Below are positions 7,680-38,402 of a stretch of DNA of 64,000 nucleotides, piece after piece. The notes under the pieces are model-generated. The model saw only the letters and a list, made by a program, of their open reading frames with translations. It was not told the DNA's origin and made no database searches. Where the stretch lies: contig NZ_CP126093.1 of assembly GCF_030123065.1 (NCBI RefSeq), positions 2,670,001 to 2,734,000 of the forward strand, written 5' to 3'. Source of the stretch: Neobacillus sp. DY30 (GTDB taxonomy: Bacteria > Bacillota > Bacilli > Bacillales > Cytobacillaceae). The first letter of the stretch is position 1. Each line of letters starts with the position of its first letter. The translations under genes and the position numbers were made by a program.

Positions 7680-7767
7680 TGGATATTTTTGCAGGAATGT
7701 ATCCGTTATCACCGTGATGAACTAAGGTTTTTACGGTGATTTAGCAGGGAAAAGCCGTAAAATAGTG

Positions 7768-26600: not shown

Positions 26601-27101
26601 TTAACGATTATCGACTTTTTCCGGGTACAGGTCATGGTTCATCAAGCGGAAAGCTGCGATTTCTTCGAATTTGGTACCTGGCTTCCCATAATTGCACCAT
26701 GGATCAATCGAAATTCCACCGCGCGGCGTGAATTTACCCCAAACTTCAATATAACGAGGATCCAAAAGCTTTATTAAATCATTCATGATGATGTTTACGC
26801 AATCCTCATGGAAATCACCATGATTTCTAAAGCTGAATAGATAGAGTTTTAGAGATTTACTCTCTACTATTTTTTTATCTGGAATATATGAAATATACAT
26901 CGTTGCAAAATCGGGCTGATGAGTAAGCGGGCAAAGACTAGTGAATTCAGGGCAATTAAATTTTACGAAATAATCACGTTCTGGATGAAGATTATCGACT
27001 GCCTCCAAAACCTCCGGAGCATATTCAAAAGAGTATTGTGTATTTTGATTTCCTAATAGTGTTAAATCCTTTAATCCTTCTTCATGGCTGCGGCCAGACA
27101 T
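26601..27101 (-). CDS. queF: NADPH-dependent 7-cyano-7-deazaguanine reductase
   Basis: A 166-residue T-fold enzyme that reduces preQ0 to preQ1 in queuosine synthesis. The catalytic Cys is in [15 protein letters not shown] and the QPDFAT Asp follows; [22 protein letters not shown] is the family signature, with substrate Glu. Length is standard for the unimodular type. It is transcribed away from queCDE and sits behind its own preQ1-I riboswitch and terminator, so the end product controls its final enzyme. A GGAGG-like site precedes ATG 27101. Confidence 0.96.
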
Positions 27102-27170
27102 AAAAAAACCTCCAAGTCAAAATGTATATTTAAAAAGCCCAAGCAATCATTCTATTAAAATCTAACGGAT

Positions 27171-27205
27171 AAAAAAACAAAAGCCATGTCCGGTATGGAC
27201 ATGGC
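27171..27205 (-). terminator. Riboswitch expression-platform terminator, queF
   Basis: On the minus strand GCCATGTCC and GGACATGGC (27183-27205) form a 9-bp stem with a short loop, followed by TTTTG and seven T (27171-27182). Confidence 0.85.
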
Positions 27206-27219
27206 ATAGAGTCATGTAT

Positions 27220-27257
27220 CCATAGTTTTTTATAGAGGGTATCAGCTATGAACCTCT
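27220..27257 (-). promoter_or_regulatory. preQ1-I riboswitch, queF leader
   Basis: Reading the minus strand from 27257: AGAGGTTCATAGC, then ACCCTCTATAAAAAACTATG. This matches the compact preQ1-I aptamer (AGAGGTTC-AGC-ACCCTC-A-rich tail-CTA), an H-type pseudoknot. Binding of preQ1 should favour the downstream terminator. Confidence 0.88.
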
Positions 27258-27286
27258 CCCGTGTATGTACGGGTATATCTTCCCAT

Positions 27287-27315
27287 ATAATAAAGGACAC
27301 TGTGCCAAACGTCAA
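27287..27315 (-). promoter_or_regulatory. Sigma-A promoter of queF
   Basis: TTGACG (27315-27310) and TATTAT (27292-27287) on the minus strand with a 17-bp spacer, about 30 bp upstream of the aptamer. Confidence 0.7.
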
Positions 27316-27402
27316 TTGAAAAATTATGGGCAAAAAATAATCCCAATATTTAAAAGATTAACCTTTCACTTTTTATATGATATCATACAAAAAGAAAATA
27401 AT

Positions 27403-27435
27403 AGAGGTTCTAGCACCCCTCGTTAAAAAAACTAA
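27403..27435 (+). promoter_or_regulatory. preQ1-I riboswitch, queCDE leader
   Basis: AGAGGTTCTAGCACCCCTCG followed by TTAAAAAAACTAAG is a near-consensus preQ1-I aptamer (conserved AGAGGTTCTAGC, ACCC-CTC and A-rich AAAAAACTA tail). Confidence 0.92.
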
Positions 27436-27439
27436 GATG

Positions 27440-27475
27440 AAGCAGTACTTCTATCTTGGGGTACTGCTTTTTCTA
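27440..27475 (+). terminator. Riboswitch expression-platform terminator, queCDE
   Basis: AAGCAGTAC pairs with GTACTGCTT, followed by TTTTCTATTTT, directly between the aptamer and queC. Confidence 0.88.
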
Positions 27476-27498
27476 TTTTGGAAGGAGTTTCCTTAAAC

Positions 27499-28155
27499 AT
27501 GTTAAAACAAGAAAAAGCCATTGTCGTGTTTAGCGGCGGGCAGGATAGCACTACTTGTTTATTTTGGGCGTTACAGCAATTTAAAGAGGTAGAGGCGGTC
27601 ACTTTCGACTACAATCAACGGCATAGTTTAGAAATAGAATGTGCCAAAAATATTGCAAATGAACTCGGTGTAAGACACCATATCTTAGATATGTCCTTAT
27701 TGAATCAACTTGCACCCAATGCGTTAACACGATCTGATATTGAAGTCAAAGATGGTGAAGATGGTGAACTTCCATCAACGTTTGTTCCGGGAAGAAACCT
27801 ATTGTTCCTGACCTTTGCCGGAGTATTAGCTCGTCAGGTTGGTGCCAGGCATTTAGTGACAGGTGTTTGTGAAACAGATTTCAGCGGTTACCCGGATTGC
27901 CGTGATATTTTTATAAAATCGCTAAATGTAACTTTAAATCTTTCAATGGATGATAATTTTGTGATTCACACACCATTAATGTGGATCAATAAAGCGGAAA
28001 CGTGGGCATTAGCGGATGAGTTAGGTGCACTTGACTTTGTGCGCGAAAAGACGTTAACCTGCTACAACGGTGTCATTTCTGACGGCTGCGGCGAATGTCC
28101 GGCATGTGTGTTAAGAAAACGCGGACTCGATGACTTTCTAAATGGGAGGTTTTAA
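27499..28155 (+). CDS. queC: 7-cyano-7-deazaguanine synthase
   Basis: A 218-residue ATP-dependent enzyme that turns carboxydeazaguanine into preQ0. The PP-loop SGGQDSTT is at the N-terminus, [15 protein letters not shown] is the substrate region, and the zinc-binding cysteines [19 protein letters not shown] are near the C-terminus. ATG 27499 follows GGAAGGAG by 11 nt; the TTG at 27478 precedes the ribosome site and overlaps the terminator. First gene of queCDE. Confidence 0.96.
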
Positions 28156-28158
28156 GAC

Positions 28159-28641
28159 ATGTACGGCTTTAGAATCGTGGATAAACTGCAAAAAATGGAT
28201 GAAGATATTCAACTCAACGAGCTTAAATATCATACTAAGCGTGTATTAGTCAGTAAAGAGTTCACTTTTGACGCTGCCCACCATTTACATTGTTATGAAG
28301 GAAAATGCAAAAATCTTCACGGGCACACTTATAAAGTTATCTTTGGCATAAGCGGTTTTGTGGATCATCGAGGGTTACTGATGGATTTTGGTGATATCAA
28401 GGAAATTTGGAAAAATGAAATAGAGATTCATCTTGATCACCGTTATTTAAATGAAACGCTGCCGCCGATGAATACAACGGCTGAAAATATCGTAGTTTGG
28501 ATTTACGAAAAAATGCAAGAAGCATTAACCAAAGAAGAGAATAAGAAGGACCAATACCTTGAAGCAAGAGTAGAATTTGTCCGCCTTTATGAGACACCTA
28601 CGAGCTATGCAGAGGCAAGAAGGGAGTGGATGGAGGCATGA
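28159..28641 (+). CDS. queD: 6-carboxy-5,6,7,8-tetrahydropterin synthase
   Basis: A 160-residue T-fold enzyme of the PTPS/QueD family, converting dihydroneopterin triphosphate to carboxytetrahydropterin. Zn-binding histidines are in FDAAHHL and LHGHTYKV, with catalytic Cys in GKCKNLHGH; LLMDFGDIKE and LDHRYLNE complete the signature. It is 3 nt after queC and overlaps queE by 4 nt (ATGA). The GTP cyclohydrolase (FolE) needed upstream is not in the window. Confidence 0.95.
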   Translation: MYGFRIVDKLQKMDEDIQLNELKYHTKRVLVSKEFTFDAAHHLHCYEGKCKNLHGHTYKVIFGISGFVDHRGLLMDFGDIKEIWKNEIEIHLDHRYLNETLPPMNTTAENIVVWIYEKMQEALTKEENKKDQYLEARVEFVRLYETPTSYAEARREWMEA

Positions 28642-29366
28642 AGACAATTCCCGTGCTAGAGATTTTTGGCCCCACGATTCAAGGAGAAGGCATGGTGATT
28701 GGCCAAGTTACGATGTTTGTTCGAACAGCCGGATGTGATTATTCCTGCAGCTGGTGTGATTCTGCCTTTACGTGGGACGGGAGCGCCAAAGATGATATCA
28801 GGCATATGACTGCAGAAGAAATTTGGACAGAATTAAAAGCCCTTGGCAGGGATAATTTCTCCTTTGTTACCATCTCAGGGGGGAATCCTGCACTTTTAAA
28901 AAATCTAGATTCACTGATTGATTTGTTAAAAGAAAAGAAGATTAATATTGGTATTGAAACGCAGGGAAGCAGATGGCAGGATTGGTTCTTAAAGATTGAT
29001 GAACTCACCATCTCGCCAAAACCTCCAAGTTCGAAAATGGAAACAAATTTTGAAATATTAGATTCAATTTTTATTAATTTAGATGAAAACCAGTTTGAAA
29101 ATAATGTTAGTTTAAAAGTCGTTATTTTTGATGAAGCCGATCTGGAATATGCGAAACTGGTTCATAAACGATACGAAGGCATTCCGTTCTATCTCCAGGT
29201 TGGAAATGATGATATCACAAATGCCAATGATCAAGAACTAATTCAAAAACTTCTCCTCAAATATGAGTGGCTGGTAAATAAGGTAGTTGAAGACAATCAA
29301 TTAAATAATGTTAAAGTACTGCCTCAATTACATGCCCTGCTTTGGGGAAATAAGCGAGGAGTTTAA
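28638..29366 (+). CDS. queE: 7-carboxy-7-deazaguanine synthase (radical SAM)
   Basis: A 242-residue radical-SAM enzyme that contracts carboxytetrahydropterin to carboxydeazaguanine. The [4Fe-4S] motif is CDYSCSWCDSAFTW (CxxxCxxC), after the family N-terminus IFGPTIQGEGMVIGQVTMFVRTAG. TISGGNPALL is the GGE-like SAM-binding motif with Asn in place of Glu, as in the QueE family. Start ATG 28638 overlaps the queD stop. It ends queCDE at a strong terminator. Confidence 0.95.
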   Translation: MKTIPVLEIFGPTIQGEGMVIGQVTMFVRTAGCDYSCSWCDSAFTWDGSAKDDIRHMTAEEIWTELKALGRDNFSFVTISGGNPALLKNLDSLIDLLKEKKINIGIETQGSRWQDWFLKIDELTISPKPPSSKMETNFEILDSIFINLDENQFENNVSLKVVIFDEADLEYAKLVHKRYEGIPFYLQVGNDDITNANDQELIQKLLLKYEWLVNKVVEDNQLNNVKVLPQLHALLWGNKRGV

Positions 29367-29844: not shown

Positions 29845-29876
29845 TTAAGGTTTGTTTAAGGTTTCCTTTATAAAAT
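29845..29876 (+). promoter_or_regulatory. Direct-repeat operator and promoter of lipoprotein gene
   Basis: TTAAGGTTTGTTTAAGGTT (29845-29863) holds two TTAAGG hexamers whose starts are exactly 11 bp apart, the spacing used by OmpR/PhoP-family dimers. A TAAAAT -10 (29871-29876) lies 9 bp after the second hexamer, so the repeats occupy the -35 region. The same 19 bp occurs inverted at 36270-36288. It is probably the activator site of the response regulator at 37716-38402. Confidence 0.7.
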
Positions 29877-29937
29877 GAATCCATGGTAGTGAGATACTAA
29901 ATCCACGGATTTGTTAGAAATGAAAAAAGGAGACAGT

Positions 29938-31932
29938 ATGATGAAGAAAAAATCAATGTTTTTAAAAGCAGGTTCCATGATTTTATGCTCAATACTCTTG
30001 TTTTCCTGCAGTAAAACTACTGATTCGACGAACGAATCGAGTACGATTGCAGCAGTAAGCACGGAGAAATTAAGTACGATCGGAGATAAAGAGGTTAGTG
30101 AGGTAATCAGTGAAACGGTGTCATATAGCGACGATGATTTTTACACGGACTGGGAAAGTGAAAATCCTACGTATATTGAATTAAATGGGACAAGCGCCAG
30201 CTTTGATGGTACAGGTGCAGTGTTTGTAACGAATAATTTGATAACCATAAGAGCCGCAGGGGTATATGTGATCAATGGAAAATTAGATGATGGGCAAATC
30301 GTGGTTGATGCTGAGGATAAAGGAAACGTCAGATTAGTATTAAATGGTGCAGAAATTAATAGTTTTACTCAATCCCCAATCTAAGTAAAAAACGCAGGGA
30401 AAACGATTATTTCTCTACCTGAAGGAACAGAAAATAATCTGTCGGATGGAACAGAATATGTGCTTGAAGATTCATCGAATGAGCCTAATGCAGCCCTTTT
30501 TAGTAAGGACAACCTAACGATTAACGGCTCTAGAAAACTAACGGTTCATGGAAATTACAATAATGGAATAACGAGCAAAGACGATCTACGAATCACAGGC
30601 GGTATCATTGAGATTGATTCAGTGGATGACGGTTTGATGGGACGAGATGTGGTTGCCGTTAAGGAGGGTAACATTGCAATAGAAGCAGGTGGTGATGGAA
30701 TTAAGTCATCAAATGATAAAGACTCTTCGAAAGGGAATATAGCACTTGAAGGAGGTACGTATGAAATCACAGCAAGTAGTGATGGAATCCAAGCTCAGGC
30801 CTCATTATTTATCGCTGATGGCGACTATACGATTTCTTCTGGTGGTGGAAGTCCTGAAACGATTGCTACTAAAGGCAATGATATGAGACCACCTAGCAAT
30901 GAAACTACAACCCCAACCATTACTGAAACAGAAACTGAAAGTGCAAAAGGATTAAAAGCAACAGTAGATGTTGCGGTCGGCGGGGGTAGCTTTAAGATTG
31001 ATTCCTCTGATGATGCCTTACACAGCAACAACAGTGTTACGATTACAGGCGGTGAATTCACCATTGCCTCTGGAGATGATGGGGTCCATGGAGACAAAGC
31101 GGTTCAAACGAAAGGCGGAAAAATAAACATTACCAAAAGCTATGAAGGAATTGAAAGTAAAGTCATAAGTATAGCCGATGGTGAAATTGATGTTACCGCA
31201 AGTGACGATGGTATTAATGTTGGCTGCGGAAATGATGGTTCAGGAATGGATTTCCAATCCACTGAAACACAAGACAATTTATTATCAATCTCAGGTGGAA
31301 GTGTTACCGTTAATGCAGCAGGTGACGGACTCGATTCAAATGGTTCGATACAAATGACTGCTGGTACGGTTTTAGTTAATGGTCCAACCAACAATGGCAA
31401 TGGTTCACTTGATTACGATCAAAGTTTTGAAATGACAGGTGGATTCCTGATAGCAGCAGGTAGTGCAGGAATGTTACAGGCTACTTCAGAACAATCGACC
31501 CAGAACGCCATCGTAATGACCTATCCTGATACACAAGCAGCAGGTACACTCCTGCATGTTGAAGACAGCGATGGAAACACAGTAGCAACCTTTGCACCGG
31601 AGAAGGATTATCAGGCTGTATTTATCAGTTCACCAATCCTCGAAAAGGATAAGGACTATACGCTTTATTCAGGAGGAACGTCGACAGGTAAAGAGGCAAA
31701 TGGTCTTTACCGTGATGGAGACTACAAAGATGGTACAAAAGTAGTAGAATTTACGATATCAGACTCTGTAACATGGCTCAATGAATCCGGTGTGACAACC
31801 GGCAGCAGCGGCGGTCCTGGAGGCGGAGGTATGCGAGGGGGAGGTCAAAGACCTGATCGCGGCCAAGCACCACCAAACGGAGAAATGCCTGATGGAAGCC
31901 AGACACCACCCACAACAGAACAATCACAATAA
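29938..31932 (+). pseudogene. Carbohydrate-binding (Cthe_2159-type) beta-helix lipoprotein with in-frame stop
   Basis: The frame starts ATG 29938 (or 29941) after AAAGGAG and encodes a lipoprotein signal with lipobox LFSC, then the family N-terminal region, then long beta-helix repeats dominated by GGxxxIxSxDDGxxxxxxVxI units, and a Gly/Pro/Gln-rich tail (GGPGGGGMRGGGQRP...). TAA at 30382-30384 stops the frame between SFTQSPI and VKNAGKTIISL; the same frame is open on both sides (1-148 and 150-664), and a Tyr codon is expected there, so one base change explains it. Cthe_2159 of Clostridium thermocellum binds acidic polysaccharide. Family members often neighbour CotH, VTC and DUF4956 genes, as the latter two do here. 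A fresh mutation, sequencing error, or suppression is possible. Confidence 0.85.
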
Positions 31933-31942
31933 GGAAACGAAT

Positions 31943-31978
31943 AAGAGCATGCCAATTATAATTGGTATGCTCTCTTTT
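31943..31978 (+). terminator. Rho-independent terminator of lipoprotein gene
   Basis: AGAGCATGCCAATT and AATTGGTATGCTCT form a long stem with a 2-4 nt loop, followed by CTTTT. Confidence 0.88.
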
Positions 31979-32106
31979 CATATAATGATAGTTTAGGCCT
32001 ATAGAATGTAAGGCTTATTTCTCATTAACTTTCATAAATTTCGTTTTAAAATAGAGTAATATGTAAAATGATAATGTAAGTTAGTAGAAATAAAGGTGGG
32101 TAAGAC

Positions 32107-34197
32107 GTGGGACGAATGGAACAAAGACAGCAAAGAAGAGCGTCTAAACAATGGGATTGGAGTAAGTTTTTAAAAAAAGATTTAATAAAGAAGATGATAA
32201 TAGCAGGAGTTATTACAGCCTTATGTGGTTTACTTGTAATAAATATCTTTATCTGGAGCAGTGATGTTAGTAAATTAAATAAGCCAGCGCCTCAGCCAAC
32301 TATTATTTACGATCAAAATGGGGAGATTGCGAGTAAGATTTCCAATTCTAGCATAGAAGGAGTCAGCATTAAGCAGATTTCAGAAGATATGGTTCATGCT
32401 GTAGTTGCTACTGAAGATCAACGATTTTACAAGCATAAGGGCATAAATTATTTTGGAATTATGAAGGCTTTCTTTAAAAATATGGTAAGTGGAGATATTG
32501 TTGCAGGTGGGAGTACGGTTACACAGCAGCTGGCCAAAAATGCATTTTTAACACATGAACGGACCTATACAAGAAAGGTAAAAGAACTAATCATAACGAA
32601 AAAAATAGAACGTACCTACTCCAAAGACGAGATTATGGAGAGATACTTAAATCAGATTTATTTCGGTGAAGGTGCCTGGGGGATTCAAAGGGCTGCTAAA
32701 ACTTACTTTGGTAAAGAGGCAAGTGAATTAACCTTAAGTGAGTCCGCGACACTCGCTGGATTAATTAAAGCACCCTCCATACTCTCACCATTTAAGAATA
32801 TGGAAAAATCAATGGAGCGCAGAGATCTTGTTTTATCTTTGATGGAGCAGGAAGGATATATAAGTGCACAAGATGTACAAAAGGCTAAAGAACAGCCTGT
32901 GGTGTTGAATGAGGAGAATGTGGAAGATAAGTATGATGGAAAATATCCATATTATGTCGACCACATTATTGAAGAAGCAATGACGAAATATAAGCTTACA
33001 AAAAACGAAGTTCTTTCAGGTGGACTTCATATTTATACTGAATTAAATCCAACCTTCCAGAAGGCGACAGAAGAAGTTTATCTGAATGAGAATCTTTTTC
33101 CCGCTAGTCAAAACGATCAGCTTCTCCAGAGCGGTGCAATCTTCATTAATCCTGAAAATGGAGGGATTCAAGCTCTTGTAGGGGGAAGAGGGGAACATAC
33201 TCTGCTTGGTTTTAACAGGGCTACACAATTAGTTAGACAGCCTGGATCGACCATGAAACCTCTTGCGGTATATACACCTGCATTAGAAAAAGGCTACGAA
33301 GTCTTTGATCTATTACAAGACAGGCCGCTTAATATTGGAGGTTACCAGCCAAAGAATTTTGATAAGAAATATCGAGGAGAGGTAACAATGTATGACGCTG
33401 TAGTGAATTCGTACAATGTCCCTCCTGTTTGGTTATTAAATGAAATAGGTCTGGAACAGGGGACGAAATCAGTGAAGCGTTTTGGTATCACTTTACAAGA
33501 TGAAGATTTTTCTCTTGGAATAGCGCTTGGCGGCATGCATGAAGGAACTTCCCCATTATTGATGGCACAAGCTTACACGGCATTTGCGAATGATGGAACC
33601 ATGGCAGAGGCGCACTCTATTCAAAAAATAGAAGATGCCGATGGAAAGGTGATTGCGAAGTGGAAAAACAAATCAACGAAAGTGACTGAACCTGAAATAG
33701 CGCAAAAAATCACCTACATGCTAAAAGGTGTCGTGGAAGAGGGTACTGGGAAGAAGGCCTTCATAGAAGGCTTTGATATTGCAGGTAAAACAGGATCTAC
33801 ACAGCTGCCTTTTGCCAACGAAGCGGGGACAAAGGATCACTGGTTTGTTGGTTATACGCCTAACGTTGTCGGGGCGGTATGGCTGGGATATGACCAGACG
33901 GATGAAACTCACTACTTAGGTACATCAAGCAGTGGAACCACACCAGTTATTTTTAAAGAAATATTATCGAAAGCAAAATCAGAGCTTTCTGATGAGAAAT
34001 TTGCATTATCAGGTATTGAGAAAAAATACAAAAATGAAATAAAAAAGATAAAAGAAGAAGAGGAAAAAGCAAGGAAAGAGCAGGAAAAGGAAAAAGAAAA
34101 AGAAAAAGAAAAGAAAAAAGATAAAAATAAAGATAAAGGTAAAAATAAAGATAAAGACGAAGAAGACGATGAAGACGATGACGATGACGATGAATAA
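32107..34197 (+). CDS. Class A penicillin-binding protein (PBP1A-type)
   Basis: A 696-residue bifunctional peptidoglycan synthase. A cytosolic N-terminus and one membrane helix (about residues 27-50) precede the GT51 transglycosylase domain (ATEDQRFYKHKGIN with the catalytic Glu, GGSTVTQQLAKN, KIERTYSKDEIMERYLN). The transpeptidase domain shows SxxK in QPGSTMKPL, SxN in VNSYNVPP, and KTGST. The last 50 residues are extremely charged: Lys/Glu repeats, then a terminal run of Asp and Glu. GTG 32107 has AAAGGTGGG at 6 nt; ATG 32116 is too far. Class A enzymes polymerise and crosslink glycan on the outer membrane face. Its place between the lipoprotein gene and the VTC operon may be coincidental. 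Confidence 0.93.
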   Translation: MGRMEQRQQRRASKQWDWSKFLKKDLIKKMIIAGVITALCGLLVINIFIWSSDVSKLNKPAPQPTIIYDQNGEIASKISNSSIEGVSIKQISEDMVHAVVATEDQRFYKHKGINYFGIMKAFFKNMVSGDIVAGGSTVTQQLAKNAFLTHERTYTRKVKELIITKKIERTYSKDEIMERYLNQIYFGEGAWGIQRAAKTYFGKEASELTLSESATLAGLIKAPSILSPFKNMEKSMERRDLVLSLMEQEGYISAQDVQKAKEQPVVLNEENVEDKYDGKYPYYVDHIIEEAMTKYKLTKNEVLSGGLHIYTELNPTFQKATEEVYLNENLFPASQNDQLLQSGAIFINPENGGIQALVGGRGEHTLLGFNRATQLVRQPGSTMKPLAVYTPALEKGYEVFDLLQDRPLNIGGYQPKNFDKKYRGEVTMYDAVVNSYNVPPVWLLNEIGLEQGTKSVKRFGITLQDEDFSLGIALGGMHEGTSPLLMAQAYTAFANDGTMAEAHSIQKIEDADGKVIAKWKNKSTKVTEPEIAQKITYMLKGVVEEGTGKKAFIEGFDIAGKTGSTQLPFANEAGTKDHWFVGYTPNVVGAVWLGYDQTDETHYLGTSSSGTTPVIFKEILSKAKSELSDEKFALSGIEKKYKNEIKKIKEEEEKARKEQEKEKEKEKEKKKDKNKDKGKNKDKDEEDDEDDDDDDE

Positions 34198-34303
34198 AAG
34201 TTATTTGGTCGTTTAAAAGGTTGTCTTTGACCCAACCTGTGCCAATAGAGATTTTGAACAATGCTGAGGTATACGGTATAACACAATGTGTATTTATTAG
34301 TTG

Positions 34304-34336
34304 AAAGACCAAATCACATCCGATTTGGTCTTTTAT
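34304..34336. terminator. Bidirectional terminator, PBP gene and small minus-strand gene
   Basis: AAAGACCAAATC (34304-34315) and GATTTGGTCTTTT (34322-34334) form a long stem with T-runs usable on both strands. The 106 bp between the PBP stop and this hairpin hold nothing recognisable. Confidence 0.85.
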
Positions 34337-34352
34337 ATTATCGTTCGCAAGG

Positions 34353-34628
34353 TTAGGAATTAAATCTTTGCCCTGGATAAAATACCTCGTTGATTTCCCA
34401 AGATTCAACTATCCTGTGGGCCATTTTAGGATCATATCCCATACCCATAAGGTAGGTAATTGCTGCAACCTCTCGTAATGCATGTGCAAAAGATGTGTGT
34501 TTTGCTTCATGTAATCCATACTGCACAAAAGGCTCGACAGTTCTTAATACCGTGTGTTTATTTAGGTTTGGGTTATATTGCTGAGGTTGATTAAAGTGAT
34601 AAGGATTGTATTGGTAAGGGTTATACAA
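34353..34628 (-). CDS. Hypothetical protein with Asn/Tyr/Pro-rich N-terminus
   Basis: A 91-residue protein starting MYNPYQYNPYHFNQPQQYN, a low-complexity Tyr/Asn/Pro/Gln segment of the kind seen in Bacillus spore coat and crust proteins, followed by a compact helical part (VQYGLHEAKHTSFAHALREVAAITYLMGMGYDPKMAHRIVESWE). I do not recognise the family. TTG 34628 is the only start that keeps the N-terminal region; AGGGAG lies about 10 nt upstream. Coat association is a guess from composition. Confidence 0.6.
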   Translation of the reverse strand: MYNPYQYNPYHFNQPQQYNPNLNKHTVLRTVEPFVQYGLHEAKHTSFAHALREVAAITYLMGMGYDPKMAHRIVESWEINEVFYPGQRFNS

Positions 34629-34746
34629 AATACAGTCATCTCCCTAGATAAATAATTTTAAAAGTCATCTATAGTCTATGTATGGTGTATCGTGTGTGAA
34701 ACTGGTGTTGAAAAATTAAGAATTGTAAATTTAAATAACATAAATC

Positions 34747-34777
34747 AACGCTCAGAGCAATAATTCTCTAAGCGTTT
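34747..34777 (-). terminator. Terminator of VTC-DUF4956 operon
   Basis: On the minus strand AACGCTTAGAG (34777-34767) pairs with CTCTGAGCGTT (34757-34747) with one mismatch, followed by GATTTATG. The weak T-run lowers confidence. Confidence 0.6.
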
Positions 34778-34811
34778 GATATTGCATATTCGATTTTTAA
34801 TTCAATAAACA

Positions 34812-35495
34812 TTAAGCTGTAAAGTTGCCGTCATAGCATAGCATGATGGCTGATTTAACATCCTCCATGCTAGAAATATTATTAATAAAATCTAGGTCAT
34901 GATCTTTGACTCTTATTTCATAGGTCACTTCAAGATCATTACCTGGCATAGCTGACTTTGATTTAAGGGAATGCTTTAAAGCATGTCCAGCAATGACATG
35001 TTCCAGTGATTTTTCAATCGATGTGCTGCTGTATCTTACAACTAATAAATATGGGTTTTCAATCTTTATTTTGTTAATAAATACAATTAAGACTGTTCCT
35101 ATAAAAATGGATCCAATTATTGCAAGAGGAACAAAACCAGCCCCACACAAAATGCCGGCAACAATTGCCCAGAAGATATAGACAATGTCCATTGGGTCTT
35201 TAATAGGAGTTCGGAAACGAACGATCGATAATGCCCCTACCATCCCCAGTGATAACAACGCATTTGATGAGATTCCCATGATAATTAGGGCAGTTGCCAT
35301 CGCCATGATAATTAACGAAATATTAAAGGTATGAGAATAAATAACACCGGTGAAAGTTTTTTTATAGACATAATAAATGAATAAACCTAACGCAAAAGCG
35401 GCTAATAAGCCAATCAATGAATCTACTATCGAAAAACTGCTTGTTTTTTCTAAAAAACTCGATTTGAAAATGTCCTTAAAATTTAAACTTTCCAT
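34812..35495 (-). CDS. DUF4956 membrane protein
   Basis: A 227-residue protein with about four N-terminal helices (residues ~22-45, 55-75, 80-95, 105-140) and a soluble C-terminal domain. The central motif ALSIVRFRTPIKDPMDIVYIFWAI is the hallmark of DUF4956. Function is unknown; the family commonly pairs with VTC-type polyphosphate polymerases, and here it is the second gene of that operon, 23 bp after the VTC gene. ATG 35495 has GGAGG at 8 nt. A channel, or a translocator for the polymer made by its neighbour, would be consistent. Confidence 0.85.
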   Translation of the reverse strand: MESLNFKDIFKSSFLEKTSSFSIVDSLIGLLAAFALGLFIYYVYKKTFTGVIYSHTFNISLIIMAMATALIIMGISSNALLSLGMVGALSIVRFRTPIKDPMDIVYIFWAIVAGILCGAGFVPLAIIGSIFIGTVLIVFINKIKIENPYLLVVRYSSTSIEKSLEHVIAGHALKHSLKSKSAMPGNDLEVTYEIRVKDHDLDFINNISSMEDVKSAIMLCYDGNFTA

Positions 35496-35518
35496 TTATA
35501 ATTCCTCCAATTATTGTA

Positions 35519-36217
35519 CTAACCAAACATCCTGCTATACTGATATTTTGAATAGCCGCCTTTTCGTCGATCGATGACTTGTAGTAATTGTTTGATGATC
35601 TCAGGTAAATACTCATCAAATTTCACCTCAAGAACCACGACACCGGGAGTGGTTTCAACCATTGCTAAATCTGGATTTAAAAGATCATTATTTCGAAAAC
35701 TTGTTTTAATGCAGCTATCAAATGTGACCCGGACGTTACCATATTCATAAATGAACACTTCACGTTCATAGTCGACAACCGTCATTGGTTTTAATTGATA
35801 GAGTTTCATTTGGACATAAAGGTCCCTAATAAGCGGTCTTGTGTCATTTTCCATCCAATCAATGTCACCGAAGCGAATTCGTTCATTTTCCTCTGGGGTT
35901 AAACGGCATTTTTGTTTAAAGGTTAAATTATCACGTTTGCTCTTTTTTTCAAGATTAAGATACTCCATGTTGTAATCATACAATCTGACTCTAAACTTAT
36001 CTCGATCAAGTAAACCTTCTTTCTTCTGCGATAAAACCTTATTATCAAAGTTATCGAAGTAGACATTTCGTATTAAGTACTTTCCATTGTTTTTCGCATG
36101 AGGGTCATGTTTCATAACATGCTTTAATTTATTTCGAAGTAGGTAGCAATCTAACGATGTGATTTCATGCTTTAATTCTCTCCGGCCCTTTACACTATTT
36201 AAGCTCATCGCCTTCAC
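35519..36217 (-). CDS. VTC-domain polyphosphate polymerase-like protein
   Basis: A 232-residue protein with the VTC/CYTH-like tunnel-fold signatures: RRELKHEITSLDCYLLRNKL, YLIRNVYFDNFDNKVLSQKKEG, RDKFRVRLYDYN, LEKKSKRDNLTFKQK, VDYEREVFIY, VRVTFDSCIKT, and VVLEVKFDEYLPEIIKQLL. The clustered Arg/Lys/Glu residues correspond to those that bind phosphate and metal in the yeast vacuolar Vtc4 polymerase. Bacterial members are poorly studied; polyphosphate synthesis is inferred from fold. GTG 36217, after GGAGAGAG, is the chosen start. First gene of the operon with DUF4956 and behind the 36270-36288 operator. Confidence 0.87.
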   Translation of the reverse strand: MKAMSLNSVKGRRELKHEITSLDCYLLRNKLKHVMKHDPHAKNNGKYLIRNVYFDNFDNKVLSQKKEGLLDRDKFRVRLYDYNMEYLNLEKKSKRDNLTFKQKCRLTPEENERIRFGDIDWMENDTRPLIRDLYVQMKLYQLKPMTVVDYEREVFIYEYGNVRVTFDSCIKTSFRNNDLLNPDLAMVETTPGVVVLEVKFDEYLPEIIKQLLQVIDRRKGGYSKYQYSRMFG

Positions 36218-36256
36218 GTTTCTCTCTCCAATCTGTTAAACAACTTCTTGAAACCT

Positions 36257-36288
36257 ATTATGTTTGTTCAACCTTAAACAAACCTTAA
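36257..36288 (-). promoter_or_regulatory. Direct-repeat operator and promoter of VTC-DUF4956 operon
   Basis: On the minus strand, TTAAGGTTTGTTTAAGGTT runs from 36288 to 36270, identical to the operator at 29845-29863. A CATAAT -10 (36262-36257) lies 9 bp after the second TTAAGG, the same distance as at the other copy. Confidence 0.72.
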
Positions 36289-36442: not shown

Positions 36443-37735
36443 TTACATGGGTAGTTTTATTTTAAATGTCGTGCCTGCAGTTTCATTGGGGCTGACTTTA
36501 ATACTTCCACCATGGGCGGAAACAATCCATTGGGCAATCGAGAGACCTAACCCAATTCCGCCTGATTCTCTTGTACGTGCCTTGTCTTCACGGTAAAAAC
36601 GGTCAAAGATGTACGGAATATTTTCATCTTTGATCCCAATACCCGTATCACTTATCTCCAGCACAACTTTATGATCCTGTTCATAGGTTTTTACTCCGAT
36701 ACTGTCATGTTCGCCTGTGTACTTTAATGCATTATCGAGCAAAATCACGAGCAGTTGATGAAAACGGGTTTCATCGGCATTCATCATCATGTCGCAATTT
36801 AGTTTTAGCCAGAAATGTTTATCCTGTGATTCAGCTATTTCGATATAAGGTGTACATACGCTTTGTACAAAGCTATCAACATGTAAGTTTTTTTTCTCGA
36901 GCTGTGTTTCCGCTGAATCTGCCCTTGCTAACGTCAACAGGTCTGTCGTAAGCTTCGATAGTCTTCTAGTTTCTGAAAGGCTTAAGGCAATATTTTCAAA
37001 TTTGTTTGCTATTTTTTCATGAGGTGTGGTCAGCATTAACTCTAACTTATTTTGTATAATCGTTAATGGGGTTCTTAACTCATGAGAGGCATTTTCAACA
37101 AACTCAGCTTGCTTGTTCCAGGAATGAATAATCGGTTTCATCATCTTTTTTGATAAAAAATAGGAGGCAGAAATCGATAGTAAGATAAAGATGGATGAAC
37201 AAAGGATGAGGAGTTTACTAAAATTATTTAGGATATTTTGCTCCGCATCTATATTGATCATAAGCTGAATATATGCCACCTCATCGTTATCATTGGCATC
37301 TTCAAATAAAAGATAGCGAAACGGATACAAATTATTCACATCCGTATTGGTTATGTTATTAAGGTTCGTTTTATCAAGTTTATATTCTTCCAAATAGTCA
37401 TCATAAAATAAAGTGCCGATTTCGTCTTGATTAACAATCTTATCATTTTCATTCCACTTAATGACCATAATTCGCGGGTTTTTCGGCCGTTCATTTTGAC
37501 GTGAGCCCTTATCATTTGGGGGAGGGATTCGCGTATCATTTGGCGTATCATTGACCATCCGTTCCTTGATCATTAGCAGTTCCTCATCTGTCTTGGTGAA
37601 TAAGGTATGTTGAACCTGACTAAAAATAATCAAGCCGAAAATGGTAAAAATCACCGTAAAAGATATAAGATTAAGAACCATGTATTTTAATTGTTGTTTT
37701 CTGAAAATCTTATTTTTAAACATTTCCTTCACCAT
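36443..37735 (-). CDS. Sensor histidine kinase
   Basis: A 430-residue membrane kinase. Helices at about residues 18-40 and 172-192 enclose an extracytoplasmic domain of about 130 residues, rich in Asn/Asp and with a Pro/Arg-rich stretch. After this come the HisKA box ASHELRTPLTIIQN (phosphorylated His), an N-box region LLDNALKYTGEH, G1 ISDTGIGIK, F-box YIFDRFYREDKAR, and G2 GGIGLGLSIAQWIVSAHGG. The gene overlaps the response regulator by 20 bp. The signal is unknown. Proximity to the operator-bearing VTC operon suggests envelope or phosphate/polymer sensing. Confidence 0.92.
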   Translation of the reverse strand: MVKEMFKNKIFRKQQLKYMVLNLISFTVIFTIFGLIIFSQVQHTLFTKTDEELLMIKERMVNDTPNDTRIPPPNDKGSRQNERPKNPRIMVIKWNENDKIVNQDEIGTLFYDDYLEEYKLDKTNLNNITNTDVNNLYPFRYLLFEDANDNDEVAYIQLMINIDAEQNILNNFSKLLILCSSIFILLSISASYFLSKKMMKPIIHSWNKQAEFVENASHELRTPLTIIQNKLELMLTTPHEKIANKFENIALSLSETRRLSKLTTDLLTLARADSAETQLEKKNLHVDSFVQSVCTPYIEIAESQDKHFWLKLNCDMMMNADETRFHQLLVILLDNALKYTGEHDSIGVKTYEQDHKVVLEISDTGIGIKDENIPYIFDRFYREDKARTRESGGIGLGLSIAQWIVSAHGGSIKVSPNETAGTTFKIKLPM

Positions 37736-38402
37736 TGTCCGTAAGCATGTAGCCTAATCCCCGGAAGGTTTTTATAAATTGATCATAGTTGAATTTTTTT
37801 AAGTTTTTTCGTAATTTACTTGCGTACACCTCAACAACGGTTGCACTGGTATCAGATTCAAAACCCCAAATTCGGTCGAAGATTTGTTCTTTTGTGAGAA
37901 TCGTATTTTTATTGTTAATTAAGTACTCAAGCAGCTCGAATTGTTTCCCACTCAAATTTACAAGTTCATCGCGAATGGTAGCAGTATTATTTTTCACATT
38001 TAGCTTTAGATCCTTGAAGGTAATCACGTTTTCTTTAAATGTGCGAACGTTCCTTCTCACCATTACCTCTAATCGCAATAAAAGCTCCTCTCGATGAAAA
38101 GGCTTGACAAGATAATCATCTGCTCCGACCTTAAAGCCCAGAATCTTATCATCAATCCCATCTTTTGCGGTAAGCATCATAACTGGTGTTGTTATATTCT
38201 TCTTTCTTAGATTTTCTAAAACTTCATAGCCATTCATATACGGCAGCATAATATCTAAGATGATGACATCAAAGATATTCTGTTCTGCTAAGAATAACCC
38301 TTCCTCTCCGTCATAAGCTTGTTCTGTTTCAAACAGTTCACCAACTGTTTCACGGATTGTTTCAGACAAGTGTTTATCGTCTTCTATAATTAATAATTTC
38401 AT
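37716..38402 (-). CDS. OmpR/PhoB-family response regulator
   Basis: A 228-residue regulator with receiver domain (acidic pair Asp8-Asp9, phospho-acceptor Asp50 in VIILDIMLPYMNGYE, Lys100 in YLVKPF) and a C-terminal winged helix (LNVKNNTATIRDELVNLSGKQFELLEYLINNKN...TVVEVYASKLRKNL). OmpR-family dimers bind direct repeats about 11 bp apart, which matches the operators at 29845 and 36270. It is cotranscribed with the kinase (20-bp overlap) from a good sigma-A promoter. Its own promoter lacks the TTAAGG repeats, so no autoregulation is evident. Confidence 0.93.
   Translation of the reverse strand: MKLLIIEDDKHLSETIRETVGELFETEQAYDGEEGLFLAEQNIFDVIILDIMLPYMNGYEVLENLRKKNITTPVMMLTAKDGIDDKILGFKVGADDYLVKPFHREELLLRLEVMVRRNVRTFKENVITFKDLKLNVKNNTATIRDELVNLSGKQFELLEYLINNKNTILTKEQIFDRIWGFESDTSATVVEVYASKLRKNLKKFNYDQFIKTFRGLGYMLTDNGEGNV

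Follow-up and report, generated by a model that had tools for sequence, protein, structure and literature searches.

A shared 19-bp box at two promoters of a VTC-DUF4956 and Cthe_2159 lipoprotein locus, and the OmpR-type regulator that very probably reads it

Why should two transcription units that face different ways, one encoding a beta-helix lipoprotein and the other a VTC-domain protein with a DUF4956 membrane protein, be preceded by the same 19 base pairs, and which regulator, if any, reads them? The question is raised by a 64,000-nucleotide stretch of the genome of Neobacillus sp. DY30 (contig NZ_CP126093.1, positions 2,670,001 to 2,734,000), the whole of which is called the window here. 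The best overall explanation, and a likely one, is that the 19-mer is the binding box of a linked response regulator, RR-A, serving the promoters of both VTC-DUF4956 and the Cthe_2159 lipoprotein gene; that the two promoters form one regulon is, from comparison of related loci, very probably right. The elements concerned are these:

29845..29863, plus strand: box 1, the 19-mer TTAAGGTTTGTTTAAGGTT, 5′ of the lipoprotein gene
36270..36288, minus strand: box 2, the identical 19-mer, 5′ of VTC-DUF4956
29871..29876, plus strand: -10 hexamer TAAAAT of the lipoprotein promoter
36257..36262, minus strand: -10 hexamer CATAAT of the VTC promoter, where ATAAT is conserved in the logo of 34 loci
29938..31932, plus strand: Cthe_2159-type beta-helix lipoprotein gene (Pfam PF14262 on both pieces of an interrupted frame; lipobox LLFSC, by eye)
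34812..35495, minus strand: DUF4956 membrane protein, possibly MgtC-like (Pfam PF16316)
35519..36217, minus strand: VTC-domain protein, predicted polyphosphate polymerase (Pfam PF09359, E 1.9e-35)
36443..37735, minus strand: sensor histidine kinase HK-A (HisKA and HATPase_c)
37716..38402, minus strand: response regulator RR-A of the OmpR/PhoB type, the proposed reader of the two boxes (Response_reg and Trans_reg_C)

A first-pass annotation of this DNA had noted identical 19-mers at 29845-29863 (plus) and 36288-36270 (minus), each with two TTAAGG words 11 bp apart and a -10-like hexamer 9 bp past the second word, and the lack of a standard -35. All of this holds: exact search returned the same two copies, words and spacing are as described at both sites, and no TTGACA-like -35 is visible by eye at either promoter. 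With up to three mismatches allowed, the 19-mer has just two matches in the window, and two or more were found in one of 100 shuffles. The source genome is a single contig of 6,139,711 bases, in which the search that the annotation had suggested, for exact TTAAGG-N5-TTAAGG, gives three copies; the third lies within an open reading frame (ORF) of 133 amino acids and was for that reason rejected as a regulon site. Many random genomic copies, which the annotation had said would speak against it, are not what is seen, as the extended box TTAAGGTTN3TTAAGGTT occurs twice in the genome, solely at the two window sites (reversed control, 0). Across 193 family genomes, this one included, it has 65 matches in 33 genomes, against 3 for the control. 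When box and -10 spacing were sought together with up to three mismatches, five places were found in the genome and none in the control, the window sites being the best (0 and 1 mismatch; the others 2, 3 and 3). A plasmid search gave no match. The box pair is thereby confirmed as a real feature, far beyond chance.

Is the pair maintained in relatives? Related loci were collected by searching public genomes with the VTC sequence as query, and the best 80 of 131 were used. A linked RR-A was defined by at least 50% identity (actual values were at least 66%), with at least 150 bp of DNA required 5′ of the VTC gene; a VTC box was called within 250 bp upstream of the gene at no more than one mismatch, and a lipoprotein box between 300 bp before and 150 bp after the start of the longest ORF. 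The box is upstream of VTC in all 34 loci with linked RR-A (perfect in 30) and before the Cthe_2159 gene in 28 of 29 (perfect in 27), and the exception, L070, has a perfect box at 7735 on the minus strand, further upstream and outside the scanned stretch. Among Cthe_2159 genes without linked RR-A it was called in 3 of 22 (L076, L079 and L114), all of them in genomes that carry RR-B, a paralogue with 45–48% identity to RR-A. The usual order is lipoprotein gene (pointing away), box, RR-A, HK-A, box, VTC, DUF4956; the window is a variant in which VTC and DUF4956 share the strand of HK-A and RR-A and the lipoprotein gene lies on the far side of VTC-DUF4956, on the opposite strand, with its box retained. 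Mean pairwise identity over the 34 VTC promoters is 85% in the spacer and 87% in the -10, compared with 32–38% in the flanks and 29% at fourfold-degenerate sites of the VTC gene, while the 98% identity of the 12 fixed box positions weighs less because these were used to choose the sites. Judged from the aligned promoters, box, spacing and -10 are evidently under strong constraint at both promoters. Nine extra boxes inspected in relatives have no common target, and such boxes were rejected as further regulon members: two precede Cthe_2159-type lipoprotein genes (L114, L169), and the others precede, by eye, a small secreted protein, an HD-type membrane protein, an acyltransferase (twice) and a phospholipase-D-like protein (twice), with nothing clear, again by eye, near that of L168.

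The arrangement resembles a promoter type known from streptococci. CiaR binds TTTAAG-N5-TTTAAG, and CiaR-activated promoters have been predicted with a -10 at a distance of ten (PMC8317062 and PMC3091779 for the repeat, PMC3091779 for the distance). The consensus of the 34 VTC promoters has both features, its logo reading TTTAAGGTTTGTTTAAGGTT with AATAAT at a CiaR-like distance, the likeness being one of promoter layout; box 1 of the window departs from the CiaR repeat at the opening position of its first word, which is G in place of T. Unlike the CiaR repeat, the one described here extends to TTAAGGTT, and unlike the CiaR regulon its targets are VTC-DUF4956 and the Cthe_2159 lipoprotein, in hosts that are, per record titles, Bacillus-like genera, Planococcus, Lysinibacillus and Paenibacillus. 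Since repeat and -10 distance match those of CiaR promoters, the two promoters are by analogy of the CiaR-activated type, the box standing where a -35 would be. RR-A itself has a receiver and a Trans_reg_C DNA-binding domain, as OmpR/PhoB-type output requires, and a direct-repeat operator in 11-bp phase beside a -10, as expected for this type, is present at both promoters. Each of the 25 NCBIfam matches listed for RR-A and of the 25 listed for HK-A fell below its cut-off, which leaves the regulator without a name from that source, and a title-based search of the open-licence literature gave nothing relevant on a TTAAGG direct repeat with a response regulator in Bacillus.

A second wiring of the same genes speaks to which regulator goes with which box. 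Seventeen loci have the lipoprotein gene after DUF4956 and on its strand, and in 13 of the 15 such loci with enough upstream DNA a different 11-bp direct repeat, TGACA-N6-TGACA (at most one mismatch), lies upstream of VTC; the same repeat is there in none of the 34 RR-A loci and in 2 of 28 other loci (L089 and L131). Twelve of 13 loci compared share a regulator type, RR-C (L134 differs), whose members are 63–97% identical to one another and about 30–34% identical to RR-A. The TGACA box is directly upstream of VTC in 10 of the 12 RR-C loci; in L110 and L111 it is some 1.1 kb upstream (about 8930), before the gene that precedes VTC, a gene seen among the ORFs of L110 and inferred for L111. None of the 12 has a TTAAGG box within 250 bp upstream of VTC. 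The VTC protein of L089 falls inside the RR-A clade of a quick tree, yet this locus has a linked RR-C and a TGACA box. Examples of the box are:

L089, 9842, plus strand: TGACA box
L110, 8930, plus strand: TGACA box
L115, 9871, plus strand: TGACA box

Several RR-C loci have further copies of the short TGACA pattern at other places (for example, L089 at 7514 and L113 at 1702, both on the minus strand). Across the loci compared, box type follows the linked regulator, TTAAGG-N5-TTAAGG going with RR-A and TGACA-N6-TGACA with RR-C, and L089 reads as a locus in which regulator and box were exchanged together. The first-pass annotation had proposed that the OmpR-type regulator at 37716-38402 activates both units; that a single OmpR-type regulator works at both promoters has strong support from the 34 of 34 and 28 of 29 loci and by boxes that swap along with the regulator, whereas activation is suggested by promoter layout.

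What, then, would be regulated? The VTC protein is, on sequence and model, a predicted polyphosphate polymerase. Its structural model (predicted local distance difference test, pLDDT, 89) has VTC structures as its best 13 matches in the PDB, Vtc4 first, and a profile of 36 homologues matches Vtc4 (3g3q) at E 4e-5. K16, R50, R76, R78, K92, R152, R163, E197 and K224 are invariant in all 36 proteins, and we take these charged residues to correspond to those typical of the Vtc4 tunnel. In fold and in these presumed tunnel residues the protein is like the yeast VTC complex, while unlike yeast Vtc4 it is a stand-alone domain of 232 residues with no SPX by Pfam (PF09359 only) and with a DUF4956 membrane protein adjacent. 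Because neither PPK1 (PP_kinase) nor PPK2 has a match in this genome (7 and 8 of 14 control genomes had one) and the VTC gene is found once, it is the only predicted polyphosphate polymerase seen there. The earlier claim of a polyphosphate-like polymer machine is in keeping with the VTC fold and conserved residues, the polymer itself being a prediction. Beside pel polysaccharide clusters of streptococci and clostridia lie a polyphosphate polymerase gene and DUF4956 (PMC7112168), and the pairing seen here is like that of the CotH, polyphosphate polymerase and DUF4956 genes of those Gram-positive clusters. Unlike them, the present locus has a Cthe_2159 lipoprotein and a dedicated two-component system; no CotH was found among eight window proteins scanned, and the single CotH gene of the genome is far away. 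Searches of the open-licence literature brought up gene tables and pel-linked clusters, and among the papers listed none, judged mostly by title, was an experimental study of a bacterial VTC protein.

The DUF4956 protein may, on sequence and model, be a distant relative of MgtC: the Pfam MgtC family (PF02308) matches 36 of 36 DUF4956 homologues weakly (E up to 1; best 2.7e-4, below the cut-off), the window protein scoring 12.9 bits where the cut-off is 31.4, and a model of medium confidence (pLDDT 71) has membrane helices and a C-terminal domain, possibly ACT-like, that resembles the MgtC C-terminus (2lqj; rank 2, E 0.005). Unrelated ferredoxin-like folds match this domain equally well, among them ribosomal protein S6, which ranks first; Foldseek gave no match for the domain at E ≤0.001, and searches of solved structures by sequence gave nothing meaningful. 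The lipoprotein belongs to the Cthe_2159 family by its PF14262 domain, and a search of the genome gave no second member. The family has cellulose and polygalacturonic acid among its ligands (PMC6712302), and calcium is needed for ligand recognition (PMC8746771). A Cthe_2159 gene lies within the fetched stretch in 51 of the 80 loci and in two arrangements, which supports a joint function of VTC, DUF4956 and lipoprotein.

Several results weigh against a simple RR-A regulon. In the genome itself, the bare TTAAGG pair with at most one mismatch is not enriched (47 matches against 109 in the reversed control), so a wide regulon drawn from loose TTAAGG-N5-TTAAGG searches was rejected; set beside the counts for the long box, these numbers mean that the long box is special and the short TTAAGG word is not. 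A single in-frame TAA, at 30382-30384, interrupts the lipoprotein gene, so the lipoprotein arm is probably dead in this genome, and the earlier placing of an extracellular polymer-binding lipoprotein in the regulon, while backed by the box in 28 of 29 loci, probably does not hold for the broken frame of the window. Genomes of all 46 loci without linked RR-A (28 and 18 loci) were searched for it, and it turned up elsewhere in the assembly for L062, L065, L103 (upstream DNA too short to judge) and L108, the last being a truncated second copy in an RR-A genome, without box. Fourteen loci are in genomes with RR-B and without RR-A, and since 11 of them keep the box, RR-A is not the only possible reader. 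Two further loci have a box with neither regulator: L118 (one mismatch) and L060, where both boxes are kept (one with one mismatch), no RR-A was found, the kinase HK-A is cut short and a frameshift breaks the lipoprotein gene, because of which the box of that gene was missed in the box count. These lesions make L060 look like a decaying system and, taken with the TAA in the window, suggest that the regulon is decaying in this branch. TTAAGG boxes also stand beside other two-component systems, and exclusive use of the word by RR-A was therefore rejected. A tree-based test of regulator against box had five independent pairs (on average 1.6 in the expected direction, 0.0 in the opposite one and 3.4 with no difference) and was not significant; with so few independent changes, a tree-based proof of the link was rejected too. 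Over the 76 loci counted (L103, L119 and L123 dropped for short upstream DNA, and L108), the box is present in 47 of 50 whose genome has RR-A or RR-B, versus 2 of 26 with neither.

Some of these results would suit another OmpR-type regulator, RR-B-like or a more distant paralogue, that reads the box while RR-A serves other promoters: besides the RR-B-only loci and L060, seven of the nine RR-B loci that were read (L178-L186) carry their own TTAAGG-N5-TTAAG site, and the genome studied here has two related sites beside another response regulator gene. Its other regulators, however, are at most 38% identical to RR-A, which means that RR-B is absent, and the box accompanies linked RR-A in 34 of 34 loci while linked RR-C comes with another box, so we consider a different reader unlikely. 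That RR-A binds the boxes and represses both units is quite unlikely; a box covering the -35 place could block the polymerase, but no consensus -35 is seen by eye, and the conserved -10 distance equals that which predicts CiaR-activated promoters, a distance that repression would not require. Coincidence, or recently shared descent of the promoter DNA, with no regulator involved, might be argued from the shared ancestry of the relatives and from the picking of sites by similarity to the consensus, which makes the 12 fixed positions alike partly by construction; given that spacer and -10, which played no part in the picking, are 85–87% identical against 29–38% in neighbouring DNA and fourfold sites, this is highly improbable.

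A more serious contender, possible though not favoured, leaves the regulon in place and has the VTC domain act on another triphosphate or phosphate polymer, like other tunnel enzymes. Triphosphatases and CYTH proteins of the triphosphate tunnel metalloenzyme (TTM) class also match the VTC model, albeit less well, no solved bacterial VTC structure was found by sequence, and the neighbourhood of pel clusters (PMC7112168) can be read the same way. Against this stand the structural matches, led by Vtc4, and the Vtc4-type charged residues, presumed from their tunnel roles, that do not vary in the 36 proteins.

Sites with related words were seen at other places. In L181-L186, TTAAGGAAAAATTAAGG with a -10 lies downstream of or beside RR-B and its kinase, and the RR-B genes of L180 and L182 come after what is, by eye, a MacB-like permease; from such sites, a similar box may be read by RR-B. 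In L142, L144 and L167 (near 1500), TTAAGGTTTTCTTAAGGTT is found at the end of another response regulator gene, before genes for ABC transporters, the names being given by eye. L172 (1516, minus; 1635, plus; near 2209267 in the genome studied here) has a divergent pair of TTAAGA/TTAAGG boxes with -10 hexamers, placed between two genes whose products have signal-like N-termini and next to a further response regulator gene. To judge by its placement, the TTAAGG word class serves other two-component systems too. Within the window, a transglycosylase-transpeptidase (class A penicillin-binding protein) with a long lysine/aspartate-rich tail lies at 32107-34197, between the lipoprotein gene and DUF4956, and ORFs resembling the queuosine genes QueF, QueC, QueD and QueE (by eye) occupy 26601-29366.

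If RR-A does read both boxes, the system could work as follows. HK-A would sense an envelope signal, and phosphorylated RR-A, as dimers, would occupy the 11-bp direct repeat in the -35 region and bring in RNA polymerase, in the manner of CiaR at its own boxes. At the membrane, VTC would then turn ATP into a phosphate polymer, the DUF4956 protein might help to move the polymer or control phosphate flow, and the beta-helix lipoprotein, dependent on calcium, might keep this acidic product on the cell surface. We infer activation, polymer and export alike, and the putative chain from VTC polymer through DUF4956 movement or control to retention by the lipoprotein is a reasonable one.

Overall, the picture is of a CiaR-type promoter pair that very probably controls a VTC-DUF4956-Cthe_2159 module, together with a sister wiring to a different regulator. 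A wider and tentative proposal, which we hold to be possible yet doubtful, is that in Gram-positives without PPK a yeast-like VTC and an MgtC-like partner would deliver polyphosphate to the surface, where a calcium-binding beta-helix lipoprotein would hold it, the module being a dedicated two-component output plugged into at least two regulators with the box swapped along. Joint exchange of regulator and box, with L089 as the swap, would be a clear example from nature of new wiring put around an output that is itself conserved, and the regulator dedicated to the module, the regulon of two promoters and the partner lipoprotein would together offer a direct way into the role of bacterial VTC enzymes.

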